Source: a virus
Virus record (IMG/VR): IMGVR_UViG_3300036945_000454
Span: 1 to 64,000 of that record
Strand: one strand, 5' to 3'
Length of the DNA: 64,000 nucleotides
How positions within the stretch are numbered: the first letter of the stretch is position 1; each line of letters begins with the position of its first letter. Shown piece by piece: positions 2,838-64,000 of the stretch. The notes under the pieces are model-generated. The model worked only from the letters and a program-made list of their open reading frames with translations. It was not told the DNA's origin and ran no database searches. The translations under genes and the position numbers were made by a program.

Positions 2838-5267
2838 TTATCTTGGATTAAACTGCTCTAAACTGAAGCCATCAAGTGAATCTTCCTCAGACTCAAAGCT
2901 CATTGCAGGTAAGTCTTTTTGACGTTGTTCAATCAATTTAGATTGCTGTGTTGCCTGTAACTTTGTTCTTTCATCCTTAGCTTTTTCTTTATCCATATCA
3001 AGCTGCTTAATCTTCTCAACCTCCATGCCTTTAAGTTGCATGTTGTAATTAAACTCAACGCTCATTAACTGCTCTTTAATTTGAGCCTCTGCCTGCATAC
3101 GCTGAATATCAAACTGCATCTGAGCTTGAGCCAATTGAGCCTTTGCCTGAGATTCTGCTTGTACTTTTTGTAATGCCGCTTGAGCAGATGCTTGAGATGA
3201 TTGAATGTTTCCTTGAGTTTGCATTTGTATTTTAGCTTGCTCATTCTTCATGTCATCTTGTTGCTTCTTCTTCCGCTTTAATTTAAGCAATTCGTTAGCT
3301 AACTTAAGATTCTTCATCTGACGAATATCAATAGCATCTTCTAGACTAATTTGATCCCGTTGCATAGCAACTTGGATATTAGCCTCTAACTGAGCCTTCT
3401 CTTCTTCATCAGGGGCAACCTCAATAAATACACCAAAATCGTGTAAGTACAAGTCTTTGATTTCATCTAATACACCAACTGCATATTTACCAATTTGCAT
3501 TACAAACTCTTCTTTAAAATCAGAGTACTCTAAAATGTCTGCAATTCGGCAAGATAGGGCTTCCGATAAACGCTTAGTAATAAACAAGCTGCCTTCTAAA
3601 ATATGACGAGTTGCTGTATTTGAATTAAGAGCCGCAAGTTTCTGTACACCTACCAATGCATCAGGGTTTGGAGTTGATGCATCTCTAGCTTCATTTAACC
3701 CGGTAACATCCCTGATCATTGATAGGTACTGATTGTATGCATTAATTAATGCAGTGATTTTTCCTTGTCCGCTATTACTATTAAGTTCTTGAATTGGTAT
3801 TCTGCCATTATTGAAATCTCCATCAACAGTTGAGCTTCTACCAATAACACTACCTGTTTGGAAGTATAATCGTAAAGCATCTTCTGGATTGTATGCAGCT
3901 CCTGTTCCCAAGTCAACTTCGTTAATACCATCGGCATCAATGTAAACACCATCAGGAACAACACGCTGTAATACTTGTTGTAGCTTCAAGTGTGTAAGTT
4001 GAATTAAGTCAGCAAAAGGAATCATTCTACGAGTCAATGACTCGATAACTCCTTTGTACATACGTGGAGCAACAGCAATATATTGAGGCAATGCATATTG
4101 AGATGCAGACTTAGGGCGAACCATGTTTTTAGCAAGTTCCCACTTAAGTAGGTAACTTGAGCCCATAACCATTACGCCTTCATACCAAACGTCAATACGT
4201 TTTTCAACACGCTCAAAACGCTCTTCCATTCCTTCCGGAACTTGGAAGTTCTGATCCTTCTCAATTACTTTTGATCCTCCGTTGTCGTTGTACTTCTTTT
4301 TGTAAACATACGTTTTGTCTGTTTTATAATTGAAATACATAAGAGTAACAACGTCACGATTGAATAAATCGCTACGATAAGGGCGAAGTACGCCATAGTA
4401 ATTATACCAAGCCGTACCAAGCTGCTGAATTTCTGCCAATTCTTCATTAGTAATATTTGGCTTAATTTTTATAAGTTCGCTAATAGGTACTTGCTTTACC
4501 TCGCCAAAGTAGAAACAATCATCAAATGTAGGTGACTCTGTATAACTATATACCATGTTAGCAGGGTCAACATACTCAACTCTTACTCCCGATCCAGGAA
4601 AGAAAGAATGCTTGACCATACCAATTCCAATAGTAGCAATGTCATAATCAAATCTTTTGCGTGTATCGCTATAATGGTTGACATCTAAAATTGTATTAAT
4701 AGCTTCTTCTTCAGCAATCTCAATAGCAGGCTTATATCTAAGTTGCATATAAAGATTTAACTCTTGCTCATTTTCAGGTAAATCTTGAGGAGGTACATTA
4801 AATGCATCAATGCCAAAATCTTTTTGAGTTTGCAGTAAAAAATCTTTTGAGACCATATCAGCCTCAACCATTTCTTGAAATTGAGTTCTTCTCTCCATTG
4901 ACATTGCATCTTGTGCATATGCCTTAACTTCAAATAAACGATCATTCATTCCGTTAACAACGATATCAACAAACTTTGGAATGATAGGTACAGGTGTCCA
5001 GTCTAAGTTAATATGCGACATATCGCCATCAACCTGGAATTGTTCTTTATATTTTGCAATTGATTGTTCACCACGAGCATATAACCTAATGCGATGAAAG
5101 TCAATCCATTGAGAATAGAAGCGACAGTTATTACCTGTCTTCGCAAACCATTCCCACATAATACTTTGTCCTACTTTTAATCCAAACTCCTGAGATGCTT
5201 TCTCTGCATCCGTAGCCAACTGTGTTGGGAAGTTGGTCGGATTAATCATTATTAAAGGGTCGTTCAT
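2838..5267 (-). CDS. Portal protein, crAss-like
   Basis: The 809-aa protein follows the terminase gene with a 4-nt ATGA overlap. Size and position match the long portal proteins (about 800 aa) of crAss-like phages. The first 550 residues look like the portal body (for example a RDVTGLNEARDAS segment near residue 520, a region typical of the portal family). From about residue 660 to 780 the protein is a Gln/Ala/Lys-rich helix (repeated QAKAQLAQAQMQ-type sequence), consistent with a long coiled C-terminal barrel or crown. Confidence 0.85.
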   Translation of the reverse strand: MNDPLIMINPTNFPTQLATDAEKASQEFGLKVGQSIMWEWFAKTGNNCRFYSQWIDFHRIRLYARGEQSIAKYKEQFQVDGDMSHINLDWTPVPIIPKFVDIVVNGMNDRLFEVKAYAQDAMSMERRTQFQEMVEADMVSKDFLLQTQKDFGIDAFNVPPQDLPENEQELNLYMQLRYKPAIEIAEEEAINTILDVNHYSDTRKRFDYDIATIGIGMVKHSFFPGSGVRVEYVDPANMVYSYTESPTFDDCFYFGEVKQVPISELIKIKPNITNEELAEIQQLGTAWYNYYGVLRPYRSDLFNRDVVTLMYFNYKTDKTYVYKKKYNDNGGSKVIEKDQNFQVPEGMEERFERVEKRIDVWYEGVMVMGSSYLLKWELAKNMVRPKSASQYALPQYIAVAPRMYKGVIESLTRRMIPFADLIQLTHLKLQQVLQRVVPDGVYIDADGINEVDLGTGAAYNPEDALRLYFQTGSVIGRSSTVDGDFNNGRIPIQELNSNSGQGKITALINAYNQYLSMIRDVTGLNEARDASTPNPDALVGVQKLAALNSNTATRHILEGSLFITKRLSEALSCRIADILEYSDFKEEFVMQIGKYAVGVLDEIKDLYLHDFGVFIEVAPDEEEKAQLEANIQVAMQRDQISLEDAIDIRQMKNLKLANELLKLKRKKKQQDDMKNEQAKIQMQTQGNIQSSQASAQAALQKVQAESQAKAQLAQAQMQFDIQRMQAEAQIKEQLMSVEFNYNMQLKGMEVEKIKQLDMDKEKAKDERTKLQATQQSKLIEQRQKDLPAMSFESEEDSLDGFSLEQFNPR

Positions 5268-20943: not shown

Positions 20944-21426
20944 ATGAAAACATACATGGTACCAAAAGTGTACCGCCCAAAGAAATACCCACCCGTTACA
21001 CGCATGGCAATTGAGCACGACTTCCTAAAATACATAGGGCTCGTGCAGAAATATGTCCTACGCCACTACGGACTATCGGCCCCTTACTTCCAAATGCTCT
21101 GTTTTCTGCACTCAGAAGGCATATTTAACGTAAAGTCCATCGAGAAGTACAACCAAATCCTCGGATTTGCCCCAAAAAAGCGTAAAGATATGATTGACAT
21201 GGGTCTCATCAGCCTTTTTAGACCAGGATCGTACCGAACTGTGCCCATGTATGAGCTTTCTGCCAAAGGTAGAGCCATTATGCGTGATGTTTACGCTAGA
21301 CTTTTAGGAGAAAAGCCAATTACAGAAATAAAAAGGCCCACTAAGTACTCCGAACGTCAGTTCAATAGAGTAGCAAAGAGGGCCAATGAGGATTTTAAAG
21401 CACAACAACAACGTCCTGAACTCTGA
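20944..21426 (+). CDS. Winged-helix candidate transcription regulator
   Basis: The 160-aa protein is the only rightward gene among the leftward late operons. Residues 25-115 read like a MarR-type winged helix (YFQMLCFLHSEGIFNVKSIE, then KRKDMIDMGLISLF and a wing RTVPMYELSAKGRAIM). 'YELSxKGRxI' is the common end of MarR-like domains. The C-terminal 40 residues are basic. It is divergently transcribed from the small-protein operon and its 3' end overlaps groES by 32 nt on the opposite strand. It might control late transcription; inference. Confidence 0.65.
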   Translation: MKTYMVPKVYRPKKYPPVTRMAIEHDFLKYIGLVQKYVLRHYGLSAPYFQMLCFLHSEGIFNVKSIEKYNQILGFAPKKRKDMIDMGLISLFRPGSYRTVPMYELSAKGRAIMRDVYARLLGEKPITEIKRPTKYSERQFNRVAKRANEDFKAQQQRPEL

Positions 21427-21652
21427 TGACCGTGTACATGTCATCGTTTACTCGGATCCCGTGACCTGCCGCTTTATCAAAATAGATAAAGTTACCTGGC
21501 ATGATCCCTTCGACCGCATTGCCAACGGCTGCCACAGTTGCCTTCTTGTATCGTAGCTCTTTTGTGTCAGATGCTGACATCAATAGACCCCCCTTTGTTT
21601 TTGTCTCCTCCTCTTGAGGGACAATGAGGATATTTTGGCCAATTATTTTCAT
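21395..21652 (-). CDS. groES: Co-chaperonin GroES
   Basis: The 85-aa protein is a shortened GroES: NILIVPQEEETKTKGGLLM at the N-terminus (the mobile loop region KTKGGLLM), then VAAVGNAVEGIMPGNFIYFD and YTVIRVQDVVVVL at the C-terminus. It caps the GroEL ring. It is encoded in the same leftward unit as groEL, separated from it by an HNH nuclease gene. The HNH stop overlaps its start by 4 nt (ATGA). Confidence 0.9.
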   Translation of the reverse strand: MKIIGQNILIVPQEEETKTKGGLLMSASDTKELRYKKATVAAVGNAVEGIMPGNFIYFDKAAGHGIRVNDDMYTVIRVQDVVVVL

Positions 21653-22152
21653 ACGTATTTGTTTTTTATATTATTATTTAATTCAAAATTTATCCTTGCT
21701 TGATATGCTTTTTCTTCAGTTTCATGAAAACCTAAATGTTTCTTTTTATTATTAAAAAAAATACATGAAGACCACTTTCTATTAGCTTTAAAATAAGAGA
21801 CACCTACATATTTGCTAGAGTGTTTTGATTTATAACTTCTGTGTGAATGATTTTCAATATGTGACACCCATTCAAGATTTTCAACTTTATTATCTGATGT
21901 TATTTTATTTATATGATTTACTTGATTTTGATATTCTTCTTTATTTAAAAATGCTGTAGCAACAATTCTATGAACTAGGTATTTTTTTTGATTTGAAAAG
22001 TTATCACACAAAACAACCCTTTCATATTTGCCTAAATTTTTATTACAAGGCTTTAGAAATGCTTCTTTTTTTCTTTTTAAACTCTTTACTCTTCCTAGAT
22101 TACTTATTTCATATAAGCCTTCATAGTCCTTAATTGGTTTCCAGATTTCCAT
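21649..22152 (-). CDS. NUMOD4-HNH-AP2-like homing nuclease (copy C)
   Basis: The 167-aa protein has an N-terminal NUMOD4 motif (EIWKPIKDYEGLYEISNLGR), an HNH domain (HRIVATAFLNKEEYQNQVNH near 62-81, then NLEWVSHIENHSH), and an AP2-like C-terminal DNA-binding part (SKYVGVSYFKANRKWSSCIF, KKHLGFHETEEKAYQA). It lies between groEL and groES and its end (NKYV, then TGA) overlaps the groES ATG. It is preceded by a structured RNA and a TAnnTTTG box. Confidence 0.9.
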   Translation of the reverse strand: MEIWKPIKDYEGLYEISNLGRVKSLKRKKEAFLKPCNKNLGKYERVVLCDNFSNQKKYLVHRIVATAFLNKEEYQNQVNHINKITSDNKVENLEWVSHIENHSHRSYKSKHSSKYVGVSYFKANRKWSSCIFFNNKKKHLGFHETEEKAYQARINFELNNNIKNKYV

Positions 22153-22159
22153 AAAACAA

Positions 22160-22242
22160 AACCCCCAACGATTGCAGCGAAGGGGGCGGTCAAGTTTCCT
22201 TGATAATCCGAATTAGTAAGCTGCAATATTACCAACTCGGAT
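22160..22242 (-). ncRNA. Structured leader RNA of HNH copy C (kissing-loop pseudoknot)
   Basis: On the minus strand, a 14-bp hairpin (ATCCGAGTTGGTAA / TTACTAATTCGGAT, two G-U pairs, 22242-22206) has a 9-nt loop TATTGCAGC. A second hairpin TCAAG-GAAA-CTTGA has a GNRA tetraloop (22202-22189). A third, CCCCC...GGGGG (22186-22162), has GCTGCAAT in its loop, which is exactly complementary to ATTGCAGC of the first loop. The third stem is followed by TTTTGTTTT and the HNH ATG. All by eye; no energy calculation. Confidence 0.7.
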
Positions 22243-22251
22243 TTGTATATG

Positions 22252-22259
22252 CAAATATA
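22252..22259 (-). promoter_or_regulatory. -7 box of HNH cassette C
   Basis: TATATTTG (TAnnTTTG) on the minus strand, 9 nt upstream of the first hairpin of the structured RNA, so that transcription would begin about at the base of that hairpin. Located between the groEL stop codon and the RNA. Confidence 0.6.
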
Positions 22260-22275
22260 ATTAATATAAATTAAA

Positions 22276-23814
22276 TTATGCCCTAATATTAGTAATAACT
22301 GTATCAGTAGAAAGTAATGTAGTTGCTACGCTGACCGCATTTCGCACGGCCTCCTTTGTCACCTTTGTCGGGTCGATTATCCCACTCTCCATCATGTTAG
22401 CCATCTCCATGCTCACCACGTTGACACCCACCCCTTTGCCACATGACTTTATAATATTATTGTCACCACCAGCATTCTCAATGATCTTAGCCATTGGTGA
22501 GTTTAATGCGTTGCATAAAATGCTCGCACCTTTCTTGACCGTCTGAACATCTCTCGCCACGTCCTTTAGTGCCACGCCACCACCTGGCAGGATGCCCTCC
22601 TCTAGTGCAGCTCTGACAGCACACACCGCATCGTCCACCCTGTCCTTCTTCTCCTTCTGCTCAATGTCTGACTGAGCCCCAACGTATATCACCGCTACGC
22701 CACCACCTAAATTAGCAATTCGCTCCTTCAGGAACTCCTTCTCCACGCCATTGCCCTCCACGTTTAATTGCTCTTGTAGCTCTGCCGTACGCTCATCCAC
22801 CAAGCCACCCGGCTCACGAATTAATGTAGTGAACCGCCCACTAATTACTTTCTTGGCACGACCTAGGTCATCGATGCTCACCATCGCTAAGTTGTCACCT
22901 GTCTGCTCACTAAAATACTTAGCCCCAACAGATGTCGCTATGTCCTGCATCAACTGATGCTTTTTGTAGCCAAACTGCGGTGGCATAATTGTGCACACTT
23001 TAAGCTTCGCCTTAATCTTATTTGCGTTTAGCGTGTTCAAAGCATTCTCCTCAAGCTCTCCAATAATTAATAGTGACCTATTGCCCTCTAATATAAACTC
23101 AAGGATTGGGAAGATGTCATTAATATGACTAATAGGTTGGTCAGTCACCAAGATGTATGGATCGTCAAGCACGCACTCTTGCTTCTTATGGTCAGTCACA
23201 AAATACTTGCTAGTGAACCCCCTGTCTATCTTCATACCACTAATAATATCTGAGTATGTCAACGCATCCTTTGACGGCTCAACTGTCACCACACCCGTCA
23301 GCCCCACCTTACTGTACGCATCAGCAATTATTGCCCCCGTGTCCGTGTCACCATTAGCAGAGATTGTAGCAACTGAGTTTAACTTGTCATCAGTAATCTC
23401 GACCGACATCTCGTCAAGTTTAGCCAGCACCTCAACACTCGCATCCTGGATATCTCTTAGCACCTGCGTTAAGTTATCGCTCGGCTCAATCTGAGCCATG
23501 GCCTCATGGATGATCGCCTGTGCCAGCACCATACTTGTCGTTGTCCCATCGCCTGCAGAGTTAGCCGTCTTCTCCGATGCCTCTCGCATGATCATAACCG
23601 CCAGGTTCTCAGCCGGGTCCATTAAGTTAATTGACTTGGCCAATGTAACTCCATCCTTCGTTACGGTGATACCACCAACATGTTGCTCTGATTCAATTAA
23701 AGCAGTTCTTCCTCTAGCACCAAGAGTAGATCCTACTGCATTAGCAATTTTATCTACACCAGAAATTAACTTTCTTCTACCTTCTTCACCAAAAATAATT
23801 TCTTTGACAATCAT
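22276..23814 (-). CDS. groEL: Chaperonin GroEL
   Basis: The 512-aa protein is a full group I chaperonin, slightly shorter than the usual 540-550. The ATP site is intact: DPAENLAVMIMREASEKTA and AGDGTTTSMVLAQAI at about 66-105, and GILPGGGVALKD near 403-414. The apical and intermediate domains read normally. The Gly-Gly-Met tail found in bacterial GroEL is missing (ends TVITNIRA). It would help fold capsid proteins that host GroEL does not handle. The start overlaps the upstream HNH stop by 4 nt. GroEL is uncommon in phages. Confidence 0.95.
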   Translation of the reverse strand: MIVKEIIFGEEGRRKLISGVDKIANAVGSTLGARGRTALIESEQHVGGITVTKDGVTLAKSINLMDPAENLAVMIMREASEKTANSAGDGTTTSMVLAQAIIHEAMAQIEPSDNLTQVLRDIQDASVEVLAKLDEMSVEITDDKLNSVATISANGDTDTGAIIADAYSKVGLTGVVTVEPSKDALTYSDIISGMKIDRGFTSKYFVTDHKKQECVLDDPYILVTDQPISHINDIFPILEFILEGNRSLLIIGELEENALNTLNANKIKAKLKVCTIMPPQFGYKKHQLMQDIATSVGAKYFSEQTGDNLAMVSIDDLGRAKKVISGRFTTLIREPGGLVDERTAELQEQLNVEGNGVEKEFLKERIANLGGGVAVIYVGAQSDIEQKEKKDRVDDAVCAVRAALEEGILPGGGVALKDVARDVQTVKKGASILCNALNSPMAKIIENAGGDNNIIKSCGKGVGVNVVSMEMANMMESGIIDPTKVTKEAVRNAVSVATTLLSTDTVITNIRA

Positions 23815-24332
23815 ATGTATTTATTTAAAATGTTATTTAATTCAAAATATTTTTTTCTTGCTTCGTATGCTTCTTCGGGAGTCTTATGATATCCTAAAAA
23901 AACTTTTTTACCATCAACATGAGCGTGTGCTAAATATTTATCATATTTTTTCAGCTTGAACACTCCAACTGGCGTGCCAGTATTAACACCTCTGTAATAA
24001 TGGCATGAATTTTCACGTGAAGATACCCATTCCAAATTGCTTATGCAATTATTTAATTTGTTTCCATCAATGTGATTTACAACTCTTTTGTTTTCCGGAT
24101 TAGGTAAAAATGATTTTGCTACTATTCTATGCAAAGGAATTGTTTTCTTAATCTTGTTTTTACTAAGCAAAACAGAATGATATCCATCTCTTTTTAGATG
24201 AAACTTATTAAACTTTTCCTTAACATTTCTTTGACTATTCTCAACAGGTCTGCTGAGACTTTTAATTCGGCCCATATTACTAACCTCGTAGTAAGCTTCG
24301 TAGCCTTCAATTGGCAACCATAATTCTTGCAT
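23811..24332 (-). CDS. NUMOD4-HNH-AP2-like homing nuclease (copy B)
   Basis: The 173-aa protein has NUMOD4 (QELWLPIEGYEAYYEVSNMG), HNH (PLHRIVAKSFLPNPENKRVV, then NHIDGNKLNNCISNLEW) and an AP2-like end (PVGVFKLKKYDKYLAHAHVD, FLGYHKTPEEAYEA). I take the ATG at 24332; the longer frame starts at a TTG within stem P2 of the leader RNA. Its stop (ATATGA) overlaps the groEL ATG by 4 nt, so it sits exactly at the 5' end of groEL. Confidence 0.9.
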   Translation of the reverse strand: MQELWLPIEGYEAYYEVSNMGRIKSLSRPVENSQRNVKEKFNKFHLKRDGYHSVLLSKNKIKKTIPLHRIVAKSFLPNPENKRVVNHIDGNKLNNCISNLEWVSSRENSCHYYRGVNTGTPVGVFKLKKYDKYLAHAHVDGKKVFLGYHKTPEEAYEARKKYFELNNILNKYI

Positions 24333-24341
24333 AAAAAAATA

Positions 24342-24411
24342 CCTCAGCAATCCGAGGTGGAAGACTCTTCATGCCGAGGCTTTACTTTAAGTTCTTGTTT
24401 GCAGCTTCCAC
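24342..24411 (-). ncRNA. Pseudoknot leader RNA of HNH copy B
   Basis: On the minus strand: P1 5' GTGGAAG (24411-24405), linker with AAACAAGAACTTAAA, P2 5' CCTCGGCA (24379-24372), TGAAGAGT, P1 3' CTTCCAC (24363-24357), CTCGGAT, P2 3' TGCTGAGG (24349-24342), then TATTTTTTT and the ATG. The stem strands alternate P1-P2-P1-P2, which is an H-type pseudoknot. The loops match copy A nearly base for base while both stems differ by compensating changes. Confidence 0.8.
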
Positions 24412-24420
24412 TCTGCGTTA

Positions 24421-24428
24421 CAAAGATA
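24421..24428 (-). promoter_or_regulatory. -7 box of HNH cassette B
   Basis: TATCTTTG (TAnnTTTG) on the minus strand, 9 nt before the first stem of the leader RNA. Transcription would start within a few bases of P1. Confidence 0.6.
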
Positions 24429-39538: not shown

Positions 39539-40736
39539 ACAAGGGCTTGGCATTATTAGCCAACAAGGTTTACTATATCTTGCTATGGAGGTGAGAACAG
39601 GTAAGACCCTGACATCATTGGCTATATGCGATGAGTTAAAATGTAAGGATGTTTTGTTTATCACTAAACTTAAGGTTGTGCCAGGTATACATAAGGATCA
39701 TCAGATGCTTGGCTCTCAATTTAAACTTACATGTTTAAATTATGAGTCATTACATAAACTTGAAGGTTTAAACTTTGATGTTATTATCTGCGATGAGGCT
39801 CACACTTTAGGGGCATTCCCTAAACCTAGCAAGCGTGCTAAACAGGTCAAAGACTTAGTCAAGAAGTATAAGTCAAAAGTTATATTCTTATCAGGCACTC
39901 CTACCCCGGAGTCGCATAGTCAGATATACCATCAACTTTATGTGCATCCTAACAATCCTTTTAAAGAGCATATAAACTTTTACCGGTGGGCTAATGACTA
40001 TGTCAAGCTAAAGATTAAGTATATCGGTGCCATGAAGGTCAATGATTATTCAGGTGCATTGAAGGATAAGATTACAGCTAAGGTTGATCCGTTGATGATT
40101 ACATACACGCAAGAGGCTGCAGGATTTGAGTCAAAGATAAACGAAATTGTTTACACGATTCCAATGGCAGCTTCGACCTATGCACTATGCGAAAGACTAA
40201 AGAAGGACTTAGTCATTCAGGGTAAGGACGATGTGATCCTGGCTGACACAGGTGCAAAACTTATGAATAAGTTGCATCAGATGTATAGCGGAACTATTAT
40301 CCTTGAGTCAGGTAAAAGACAGATACTCGATGACTCAAAGGCTCAGTTTATTATTAACACTTTCCGTGGTAAGAAGATTGGCATCTTCTATAAGTTTAAG
40401 GCTGAATGGGATTTGCTTAAGGATGTTTATGAAGATAAGCTGACTGATGATCTTGAGGTATTTAATTCTACTGATAAGAACATAGCCCTACAAATTGTTT
40501 CCGGCAGGGAAGGTGTTAGTCTTAAAAATGCAGATGCTTTAGTGTATTTTAATATTGATTATAGTGCAACTAGTTATTGGCAGAGTCGAGATAGAATGAC
40601 TACTATTGATCGTAAATTCAATAATGTATACTGGATATTCTCTAAAGGAGGTATTGAGAAAAAAATTTATGAAACAGTTTTAAATAAAAAATCTTACACA
40701 CTTGATTATTTTAAAAAAGATTTTATAAATTTGTAA
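39504..40736 (+). CDS. SF2 (SNF2-like) DNA helicase
   Basis: The 410-aa protein has the SF2 motifs: Q-like LRDYQKKIVKQG (3-14), Walker A EVRTGKTLTSLAI (29-41), DEAH (ICDEAHTLGAF, about 95-105), motif III LSGTPTPES, and C-terminal LQIVSGREGVSLKNADALVY and QSRDRM (motif VI). This is the size of phage SNF2-type helicases that act in recombination or replication restart. I start at the ATG (39504), one codon behind a TTG. Confidence 0.85.
   Translation: MELRDYQKKIVKQGLGIISQQGLLYLAMEVRTGKTLTSLAICDELKCKDVLFITKLKVVPGIHKDHQMLGSQFKLTCLNYESLHKLEGLNFDVIICDEAHTLGAFPKPSKRAKQVKDLVKKYKSKVIFLSGTPTPESHSQIYHQLYVHPNNPFKEHINFYRWANDYVKLKIKYIGAMKVNDYSGALKDKITAKVDPLMITYTQEAAGFESKINEIVYTIPMAASTYALCERLKKDLVIQGKDDVILADTGAKLMNKLHQMYSGTIILESGKRQILDDSKAQFIINTFRGKKIGIFYKFKAEWDLLKDVYEDKLTDDLEVFNSTDKNIALQIVSGREGVSLKNADALVYFNIDYSATSYWQSRDRMTTIDRKFNNVYWIFSKGGIEKKIYETVLNKKSYTLDYFKKDFINL
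40726..40733 (+). promoter_or_regulatory. -7 box of HNH cassette A
   Basis: TAAATTTG (TAnnTTTG) within the last codons of the helicase, with TTG at 40702-40704 (21-nt spacer). It is 12 nt before stem P1 of the leader RNA. Confidence 0.6.
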
Positions 40737-40745
40737 TGAATCGGA

Positions 40746-40814
40746 GTCGCAGCCGAAACAAGAACTTAAAAAAAGATTCCCGACATGAAGAGACTGCGAC
40801 CTCAGATTGTCGGG
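40746..40814 (+). ncRNA. Pseudoknot leader RNA of HNH copy A
   Basis: P1 5' GTCGCAG (40746-40752), linker with AAACAAGAACTTAAA, P2 5' CCCGACA (40779-40785), TGAAGAGA, P1 3' CTGCGAC (40794-40800), CTCAGAT, P2 3' TGTCGGG (40808-40814), then TTTTCT and the ATG at 40826. Both stems are perfect 7-bp helices and their strands alternate (H-type pseudoknot). Same loops as in copy B, different stem sequences. Confidence 0.82.
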
Positions 40815-40825
40815 TTTTCTAATTT

Positions 40826-41323
40826 ATGGAAGAGATTATTTTAATTGACATCATTGGATATGAAGGCTTATATATGGCAAGGAATGATGGAAAAATCATT
40901 AACAAAAATACAGGGAGAATTCTAAAGCCATCTATTACTAACGGATATGAAAGACTCTCATTGTACAAAAACAAAAAACCTAAAAATTTTTTAGTTCATA
41001 GATTGATTGCAGAAAGCTTTATGGGTAAGCTAAAAGATAAAGAAATTATCAATCATATAAATGGCAATAAATTAGACAACAATTATACGAATCTTGAAAT
41101 ATGTTCGCATTTAGAAAATAGTTGTCATGCTTCAAAGTTTAAAACCAAATCAAGCAAATATATAGGCGTTTGTTTTGACAAAGGTGAAAATAAGTGGGTG
41201 GCACAAATAAATATAGGTAGAATCAATAAAAAATTAGGTAGGTTTGAAAATGAAATTGATGCATATTTGTGTCGATTTAATTACGAAAAAGATAATAACA
41301 TAAAAAATAAATATTTATGTTAG
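40826..41323 (+). CDS. NUMOD4-HNH-AP2-like homing nuclease (copy A)
   Basis: The 165-aa protein has NUMOD4 (IDIIGYEGLYMARNDGKIIN), HNH (LVHRLIAESFMGKLKDKEII, then NHINGNKLDNNYTNLEICS), and AP2-like SKYIGVCFDKGENKWVAQIN plus KLGRFENEIDAY. It ends NKYLC and overlaps the VRR-NUC gene start by 7 nt. Same cassette layout as the copies near groEL, groES and the ring protein. Confidence 0.9.
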   Translation: MEEIILIDIIGYEGLYMARNDGKIINKNTGRILKPSITNGYERLSLYKNKKPKNFLVHRLIAESFMGKLKDKEIINHINGNKLDNNYTNLEICSHLENSCHASKFKTKSSKYIGVCFDKGENKWVAQINIGRINKKLGRFENEIDAYLCRFNYEKDNNIKNKYLC

Positions 41324-62751: not shown

Positions 62752-63443
62752 TATTGAGCCCTTTGATCCATGTACATTTCTTCTTGCTTGGCATTAGCCA
62801 CAACCTCTTGTTCCCGAATACTTGTTCCTGCATATTCGCATATTTTAACAACTAGCTTCGGAAAGTCTTGCCCGGTTAATTCAAAGTCTTGATAATCGTT
62901 AGCACTTTGATTAAACAATGGACTACCGTTCACAACTGTATACGTCCACTTAGGATCGTATGGATACCGAACATAATATGTTTCAACATTGTTAACTATC
63001 GTCAACGGGTAAATAGTTATGCTATCTCCTTGCATAACATATGCAGGGTATAATGTATTTGGTGCTGTTAAGTTTGATTGCAATAATTTATATACATTGC
63101 GTTGGTCAACGTGCTCAACTTCTTTTGAGTTATAATACAAAGCATTAAGCAAAAACCAATCAGTTGGCATTGCAAAAGTCTGACTTCCTGAACTGTAAGT
63201 CAATGGTACGTTTTTGGAAAAATAGTCAATGGTTTGATCCAATTGCTTTGTGATATCAGAATACCCAGATGTTTCTTGACCTTTAAAATCAGAAAGTTTT
63301 GAATTCTTGAAATCAATAAAGTATTGATTGAAGATTTCTAACTGAGCTTGCTTGGCAAACGAGTTGAATTCTTCTGGAGTTATATATCCATTATTATCCT
63401 TGTTAATAATAGACATCACAGTATTGCGGACAGAATTAATCAT
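62751..63443 (-). CDS. Tail adaptor/ring-like protein (P22 gp4/T7 gp11-type)
   Basis: The 230-aa protein (VRNTVMSIINKDNNGYITPE, then LPTDWFLLNALYYNSKEVEH-type segment, and YYVRYPYDPKWTY) matches the pattern of podovirus tail tubular or ring A proteins: an N-terminal helix pair, then a 'PxDxxxLxxxxY' beta section. HNH copy D is inserted directly upstream; its stop overlaps the ATG by 4 nt. Confidence 0.72.
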   Translation of the reverse strand: MINSVRNTVMSIINKDNNGYITPEEFNSFAKQAQLEIFNQYFIDFKNSKLSDFKGQETSGYSDITKQLDQTIDYFSKNVPLTYSSGSQTFAMPTDWFLLNALYYNSKEVEHVDQRNVYKLLQSNLTAPNTLYPAYVMQGDSITIYPLTIVNNVETYYVRYPYDPKWTYTVVNGSPLFNQSANDYQDFELTGQDFPKLVVKICEYAGTSIREQEVVANAKQEEMYMDQRAQ

Positions 63444-63943
63444 TGTATGTATTTATTTTCAATACCTTCATTATGCAAAAATAAGCATAATTTTCGGTAT
63501 GCTTTTTCTTCGTCATCAAAGATTCCAATATACTTTTGTTTGCCATTAATATATACTTGAGCCCTCCATTTATGGTGTCCTTTATCCCATGTTACATTAG
63601 GATATTTGCTGCTTTTTTTATACATAAGGCTTCGATGTGAATAATTCTCTCTAAATGAAACTATTTCTAAATTAGATAAATTATTATTCAACTTATTGCC
63701 ATCAATGTGATTTACAGACATGCCTTTATGTTTGCCCCAGAAACTTTCAGAAACAATCTTGTGGACCTTTTTAGCTAATCTGATGTAATTTTTACACAAT
63801 TGTAAATAAAGATATCCATCGTTTGTTTTTCTTGGCTTTAATACCCTTTTATTAAATTTAGATATATTTCTTATTCTACCCAAATTGCTTACTTCATGTG
63901 TTTCCTCATACCCTAATACAGGAACCCATAATTCATTTTCCAT
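63440..63943 (-). CDS. NUMOD4-HNH-AP2-like homing nuclease (copy D)
   Basis: The 167-aa protein (I use MENELWVPVLGYEETHEVSN at 63943; the longer frame would run into the leader RNA) has NUMOD4, HNH (KIVSESFWGKHKGMSVNHID, then GNKLNNNLSNLEIVSFRENY) and AP2-like SKYPNVTWDKGHHKWRAQVY with QKYIGIFDDEEKAYRK. It sits exactly at the 5' end of the ring-protein gene. Confidence 0.9.
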   Translation of the reverse strand: MENELWVPVLGYEETHEVSNLGRIRNISKFNKRVLKPRKTNDGYLYLQLCKNYIRLAKKVHKIVSESFWGKHKGMSVNHIDGNKLNNNLSNLEIVSFRENYSHRSLMYKKSSKYPNVTWDKGHHKWRAQVYINGKQKYIGIFDDEEKAYRKLCLFLHNEGIENKYIQ

Positions 63944-63954
63944 AATAAAAATAG

Positions 63955-64000
63955 GTCTTACTAAATCCACCGCATCTCACCTCGGTTTCATTAATAAGAC
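63955..64000 (-). ncRNA. 3' half of the leader RNA of HNH copy D (cut by the window edge)
   Basis: On the minus strand P2 5' GTCTTATT (64000-63993), then AATGAAAC, a segment for P1 3', GGAT, and P2 3' AGTAAGAC (63962-63955), followed by CTATTTTT and the ATG. TGAA after P2 5' and GGAT before P2 3' agree with copies A and B. The 5' half with P1 lies beyond position 64000. Confidence 0.6.

Follow-up and report, generated by a model that had tools for sequence, protein, structure and literature searches.

RNA hairpins repress the T4-phage homing endonucleases I-TevI, I-TevII, I-TevIII, segB, and Aeh1 mobE, and the seg/mob cassettes use the promoters of upstream host genes while their ORFs carry a promoter for the next gene (PMC2988022). 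Such embedded promoters are known in T4 segG and others (PMC2988022). In the LoaP/dfn leader, a promoter, an RNA hairpin, and an intrinsic terminator lie in the 5′ leader before an operon, with the dfn hairpin and terminator being separate and, as described, not kissing (PMC12691694). The T4/T2 gene 32 leader is a pseudoknotted phage leader with an AU-rich start region ahead of a DNA-replication gene; its pseudoknot serves translational autoregulation, is located 67 nt upstream of the start codon, and has no terminator-like end (PMC3014915). Finally, in the AbiF RNA (RCd22) and type III toxin-antitoxin RNAs, a phage noncoding RNA lies directly upstream of a protein gene and binds the protein that it precedes (PMC12373285). 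We focus here on a family of phage RNAs with likenesses to each of these systems. As with the T4 homing endonucleases, a structured leader stands directly ahead of the nuclease gene, and promoter use is seemingly alike at one of the sites described below (site D). Unlike the T4 hairpins, which are single and hide the Shine-Dalgarno sequence, the RNA comprises kissing hairpins with a terminator-like U-run and no Shine-Dalgarno sequence, and it precedes non-nuclease genes too.

The window analyzed is a stretch of 64,000 nucleotides, the first part of a virus record of 64,787 bases whose last 787 bases were used to complete copy D. A Pfam search identified four genes with NUMOD4 and HNH_3 domains at the positions given by the original prediction, and no fifth NUMOD4-HNH gene elsewhere in the 64,787-base genome. 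The earlier label of NUMOD4-HNH-AP2-like genes thus applies to all four for NUMOD4 and HNH_3, but AP2 is clear by Pfam in copy D only. Each gene was found, as predicted, behind a structured RNA, a U-run, and then the ATG, and the TAnnTTTG box proposed to precede the RNA is present in the three fully visible copies; copy D, once completed, has TATCTTTG. All copies (A–D) share the order of promoter box, folded RNA, T-rich run, and ATG:

40726–40733, plus strand: copy A promoter −7 box TAAATTTG, within the 3′ end of the upstream helicase ORF (sequence)
40741–40756, plus strand: copy A hairpin H1, whose loop GTCGCAG (40746–40752) is the kissing segment (architecture scan, covariance alignment, folding)
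40757–40778, plus strand: copy A A-rich linker AACAAGAACTTAAAAAAAGATT (sequence)
40779–40814, plus strand: copy A hairpin H2, with a 7-bp outer stem, UGA/GAU internal loop, 3-bp inner helix, and loop CTGCGAC (40794–40800) (architecture scan, covariance alignment, folding)
40815–40825, plus strand: copy A U-run, from H2 to the ATG (sequence)
40826–41323, plus strand: copy A NUMOD4-HNH homing endonuclease ORF, 165 aa (Pfam HNH_3 5e-14, NUMOD4 2e-7)
24421–24428, minus strand: copy B promoter box TATCTTTG (TTTGTAAC is common to copy B and the empty sites)
24341–24416, minus strand: copy B RNA, with H1 at 24416–24401, H2 at 24380–24341, and kissing pair GTGGAAG/CTTCCAC (architecture scan)
23811–24332, minus strand: copy B NUMOD4-HNH ORF, 173 aa, ending at the groEL start (Pfam)
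22252–22259, minus strand: copy C promoter box TATATTTG, cassette-borne (missing from empty sites; kept in L390, L460, and L010)
22161–22243, minus strand: copy C RNA, with H1 at 22243–22205, H2 at 22187–22161, and kissing pair ATTGCAGC/GCTGCAAT (architecture scan, folding)
21649–22152, minus strand: copy C NUMOD4-HNH ORF, 167 aa, with groEL on one side and a groES-like gene on the other (Pfam)
64053–64046 and 64039–64015, minus strand, just past the window end: copy D promoter TATCTTTG and H1, respectively (rest of the genome)
63954–64000, minus strand: copy D hairpin H2, inside the window (kissing pair CATCTCAC/GTGAGATG)
63440–63943, minus strand: copy D NUMOD4-HNH-AP2 ORF, 167 aa, ending at the start of a 230-aa gene (Pfam)

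Within this phage, the RNA was found with HNH genes only. The phage also encodes a GroEL-like chaperonin (22276–23814) and apparently a GroES-like protein (21395–21652), and its groEL gene is flanked on both sides by homing endonuclease genes.

In copy A, the RNA is laid out as TCGG-AGTCGCAG-CCGA, the linker, and CCCGACA-UGAAGAGA-CUGCGAC-CUCAGAU-UGUCGGG, followed by UUUU. The loop of H1, which the promoter-box position places at the 5′ end of the transcript, pairs with the apical loop of H2 over 7–8 bp, so that GTCGCAG (40746–40752) faces CTGCGAC (40794–40800) in copy A. The kissing sequences are all different (GTCGCAG in A, GTGGAAG in B, ATTGCAGC in C, and CATCTCAC in D), and each is complementary to its own partner. 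From these sequences, the predicted fold is two hairpins with kissing loops, with H2 being terminator-like. The RNA had originally been described as a pseudoknot; the long-range helix is real, but that description is incomplete because the 5′ strand of the helix is itself the H1 loop. Inspection of the segment between H2 and the ATG in copies A–D found no Shine-Dalgarno sequence, and hence no T4-type hairpin sequestering a ribosome-binding site. In several relatives (L073, L182, L196, L225, L188, L114, and L214), AGUA/GAAA replaces UGA/GAU in the H2 internal loop and resembles the bacterial loop E (sarcin-ricin) motif.

Scanned blindly for this architecture on both strands, the window yielded copies A, B, and C at ranks 1–3. 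Minimum-energy folding yielded nested helices in A, B, and D (z of −1.6, −1.7, and −2.0) and a very stable structure in C (z of −4.9); with z only −1.6 to −2.0, energy alone is no proof for A, B, or D. This folding, to which the kissing pairs were not supplied, recovered H1 and H2 with a common internal loop in these three copies. Nuclease relatives were then gathered from viral contigs and genomes, affording 290 distinct NUMOD4-HNH gene starts. At an architecture score of at least 23, the structure lies upstream of 60 of the 290 starts versus 0 of 1450 shuffled upstream regions; it also precedes 18 of 1218 other genes, several of which are true members ahead of other phage genes. TAnnTTTG occupies the expected place in 62 of 77 scanner-found relatives. 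Weak scanner matches in L348, L366, and L367 fall inside a coding gene and were dismissed as chance.

A covariance-model alignment of eight members displayed standard pairs throughout the four helices, with 15 of 20 pairs compensated, a result matched by 0 of 500 shuffles, and the covariation spans the kissing sequence, the stems, and the inner helix. Since H1, H2, and the kissing pairing had been selection criteria of the scanner, leaving the inner helix alone free, tests without those criteria were run. Two DNA patterns taken from the H2 loop, with no demand for H1, a stem, a U-run, or a promoter, retrieved about 150 relatives from viral contigs. A matching H1, U-run, and TAnnTTTG accompany nearly all of these; kinship among the matches inflates such raw counts, whereas the variety of compensated pairs is independent of kinship. 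The first pattern, TGANRAGNCNNCNACCTYNGAT, covers part of the H2 loop only and matched 84 loci, 58 of which possess an H2 stem and an upstream H1 loop holding the exact 7-nt complement; the other 26 are nearly all chance matches, with a good H2 stem lacking H1 in only two. Among the 49 distinct RNAs of this type (type 1), the U-run (at least 4 T in the first 6 bases) is present in all 49 and TAnnTTTG in 44, compared with 14 of 456 control windows (3%). Their inner helix is GAG/CTC in 34 and AAG/CTT in 15, with mixed pairs in none, and the spacing from H2 to the ATG is 8–13 nt (10–13 nt in 38 of 46).

The second pattern, derived from copy D, defines type 2 and gave 106 distinct matches, of which 96 carry the exact 8-nt H1 complement (79 in full and 17 with a weak stem base). 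Within the 79, the inner helix is paired in 77 through some 20 different combinations, a U-run follows in 76, and TAnnTTTG precedes in 72; spacing to the ATG is variable, at about 18–27 nt. On this sequence evidence, the RNA family is well supported and is treated as established, bearing out the view that the RNA is real and not a chance hairpin and that it is conserved outside this genome. An exact pattern from the A/B linker matched no viral contig, and covariance searches of about 820 bacterial genomes, in which 11–150 candidates were scored per genome, returned no match, a negative that carries no weight at that depth.

Comparison with relatives reveals how the cassettes sit in their targets. 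Site D is empty in about 60 relatives, where promoter TATCTTTG is followed almost directly by the ATG of the 230-aa gene, and the RNA is found in none of these empty sites. Where the site is filled (in the window, L011/L361, L325, L337, L370–L372, and L374), the RNA and the HNH gene lie exactly between that promoter and that ATG; in L368, the HNH gene is at the site and the contig begins there. The RNA and HNH gene were thus gained together at site D, which makes the RNA part of the mobile unit. At site B, the groEL promoter of empty relatives is followed by a short leader without the RNA, and filled sites retain TTTGTAAC and then continue with the RNA. Site C is empty in L392, in which the groEL stop overlaps the next ATG and the RNA is absent, and filled sites have gained a promoter along with the RNA. 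Site A lacks the cassette in L576 and L581, where the helicase stop adjoins the ATG of a VRR-NUC gene. By these comparisons, the cassette uses the pre-existing promoter of the target gene at D and B and brings its own at C. A mobile unit running from promoter through RNA and U-run to HNH gene had been proposed; the RNA is indeed gained with the HNH gene at D and absent from the empty B, C, and D sites, but the promoter is not necessarily in the unit. An HNH or GIY-YIG gene combined with empty sites in relatives characterizes free-standing (intronless) homing endonuclease cassettes, and both features are present here; the four HNH units are accordingly classed by sequence as cassettes of this kind, with cleavage of the empty allele predicted.

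Three decayed cassettes at site D (L338, L339, and L342) have nearly lost the HNH gene and keep its last bases, with TATTTTTG, beside the homologue of the 230-aa gene; their original promoter has decayed. TATTTTTG is also conserved in intact D-type genes. This pattern suggests that TATTTTTG at the HNH 3′ end is an embedded promoter for the displaced 230-aa gene, a putative case of promoter capture. The idea that HNH 3′ ends generally carry an embedded promoter was rejected, as TATTTTTG is clear in D-type genes only and, by inspection, imperfect in A, B, and C. Separately, the copy B site upstream of groEL in L404–L406 holds a type-1 RNA with an unrelated 162-aa ORFan that has no Pfam or PHROG match, apparently another type of cargo.

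The joint movement of RNA and HNH gene would fit an RNA that serves the nuclease as its dedicated partner or guide, as in IscB with its omega RNA (HEARO), whose mobile unit likewise has an RNA ahead of the HNH gene. The HEARO/IscB omega RNA is longer, and its protein is different from the NUMOD4-HNH proteins considered here. The genes behind the RNA argue strongly against such a partnership, which had been put forward speculatively, and we regard it as very improbable. The 49 distinct type 1 RNAs are followed by NUMOD4-HNH genes (23), GIY-YIG genes (7), helicases (7), others (9), or no called gene (3), the others comprising, by inspection or PHROG label, ORFans, replication initiators, one antirepressor-like gene, and a different kind of HNH gene. 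GIY-YIG and HNH genes can stand behind nearly identical RNAs, whose alignment scores reach up to 88% of full length. Most type 2 copies are ahead of non-nuclease genes: only 5 precede NUMOD4-HNH genes, 33 precede a single cluster of DUF6291-like replication genes, and further ones precede small ORFans, a helicase, and a ParB-like protein. Conversely, 230 of the 290 NUMOD4-HNH genes lack the RNA, and on the HNH tree it is gained or lost 42 times, versus 54 if random. The RNA is therefore neither specific to HNH genes nor tied to a nuclease gene alone in the manner of IscB.

Replication genes recur behind the RNA, with labels based on remote PHROG matches. Exactly one type 2 copy was found in each of 25 phage records, and type 2 copies lie mostly ahead of replication genes. 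Among five cultured phages examined, four have one strong promoter-linked scanner match each, ahead of replication genes: the RNA precedes a replication protein gene in Polaribacter phage P12002L, lies 13 nt before gp54 in Flavobacterium phage FCL-2 (replication-initiation PHROG 428, 4.7e-32), and precedes genes with weaker primosomal-protein matches in Flavobacterium phage 11b and Cellulophaga phage phi10:1. The scanner found no RNA in Riemerella phage GRNRAP2 and no match in 15 shuffled genomes. From these gene contexts, the RNA often appears to lead replication operons in Bacteroidota phages. In L044 (2423–2510 and about 3400–3498) and L087 (about 2360–2486), from phages with TATAAT-type promoters, similar kissing hairpins were observed ahead of HNH genes and, in L044, ahead of a replisome-organiser gene; from these two contigs, the kissing architecture may extend past Bacteroidota phages.

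A promoter, a compact fold, and a terminator-like end would together constitute a complete small-RNA gene, in a layout like that of noncoding RNA-gene pairs such as RCd22-abiF (PMC12373285). The product could then be a trans-acting or stable RNA, either a phage sRNA or an RNA antitoxin-like molecule as in AbiF/RCd22, with the downstream gene expressed by leak-through only. We consider this improbable: the downstream genes vary widely (nucleases, helicases, initiators, ORFans) and yet the ATG is always close, which indicates that position matters in cis. The AbiF and type III RNAs, moreover, bind the protein that they precede, whereas here the protein differs between loci.

Slightly better than even, in our estimation, is the proposal that the RNA acts in cis as a 5′ leader by which transcription into the following gene is attenuated, and that homing cassettes have borrowed it. 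The TAnnTTTG box ends a few bases upstream of H1, so transcripts should start at H1. No promoter lies between H2 and the ATG, and every transcript, whether from the promoter ahead of H1 or from farther upstream, must therefore cross H2 and the U-run. The arrangement of promoter, structured leader, terminator-like hairpin, and gene, with no room for a second promoter, is that of an attenuator leader. H2 has the GC-rich stem and U-run of an intrinsic terminator (GC fraction of 0.91 in the first 3 bp and 0.31 in the rest) without its short loop of 3–8 nt, the apical part being 22–30 nt with the inner helix, and a simple terminator scan did not call H2, as its loop exceeds 8 nt. RNA polymerase would mostly halt at the U-run and release a leader of about 85 nt. 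A plain terminator needs no H1, conserved internal loop, or linker, and the conservation of these elements suggests that read-through is set by folding: the kissing interaction and internal loop would determine its frequency, probably by means of a protein or ligand that binds the leader. The leader would in most phages gate a replication-initiation operon, and a homing cassette with its own copy could place its nuclease directly behind a host-gene promoter without over-expression. The best analogy is the LoaP/dfn leader, in logic and not in ancestry. Against attenuation, neither an alternative, antiterminating fold nor a factor acting in trans was identified; attenuation still fits better than a small terminated RNA.

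The fixed type 1 spacing of 10–13 nt between H2 and the ATG fits translational control as well, in which the kissing structure beside the AU-rich start region would bind a phage protein or itself hinder ribosomes, with the U-run being mainly an unstructured stretch on which ribosomes land. A precedent is the leader of T4 gene 32 (PMC3014915), and a third copy of the kissing sequence occurs just before the ATG in 7 of 77 relatives versus 0.4 expected (L022, L202, L214, L183/L171, and L195), which could offer the H2 loop the start region as an alternative pairing partner. The third copy, between the U-run and the ATG, covaries with the other two (GTGCAG, GAGCAG, GGGCAG). As a general switch it was discarded, being confined to few loci and to none in type 2. 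In type 2 the spacing is longer and varies, third copies occur in 0 of 75, and translational control does not require a GC clamp with a U-run; we hold this explanation to be unlikely, albeit worth weighing. Less probable again is a 5′ stabiliser, whereby a paired 5′ end and compact fold would shield the mRNA from decay: H1 almost always begins at the transcription start or close to it, but the GC clamp with its U-run, the conserved internal loop, and the linker would be left unexplained.

A search with 4227 Rfam models produced no hit above the gathering threshold in the window and, across nine RNA loci, no relevant match up to E=5, including no HEARO, in line with the initial impression that no named RNA family has these loops. 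No intron remnant, riboswitch, or tRNA-like element of Rfam or ARAGORN was matched. Among open-licence papers, none was found that describes the family, although a member without a name may be listed in one of the large motif catalogues (for example PMC8040213). Leaders that attenuate, and homing endonucleases under hairpin control, are already known; a kissing-hairpin leader family common to replication operons and homing cassettes is a new variation on them.

Beyond attenuation as such, a more tentative possibility is that the family constitutes a new signal-sensing RNA switch class, found widely among Bacteroidota phages, which gates their replication operon and which homing endonucleases captured as a portable safety catch. 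Here, the kissing pair and the conserved noncanonical internal loop (UGA/GAU or the AGUA/GAA loop E-like form) would bind a protein or small molecule and thereby decide between termination and read-through. The family heads the replication operons of many Bacteroidota phages, cultured ones included, in which the timing of expression is little known, and its single copy per cultured phage makes its function directly testable. It also shows a way for a homing endonuclease to enter between a promoter and its gene, by bringing along an attenuator-like leader and, in the site D cassette, apparently also a promoter in its own 3′ end for the displaced gene.
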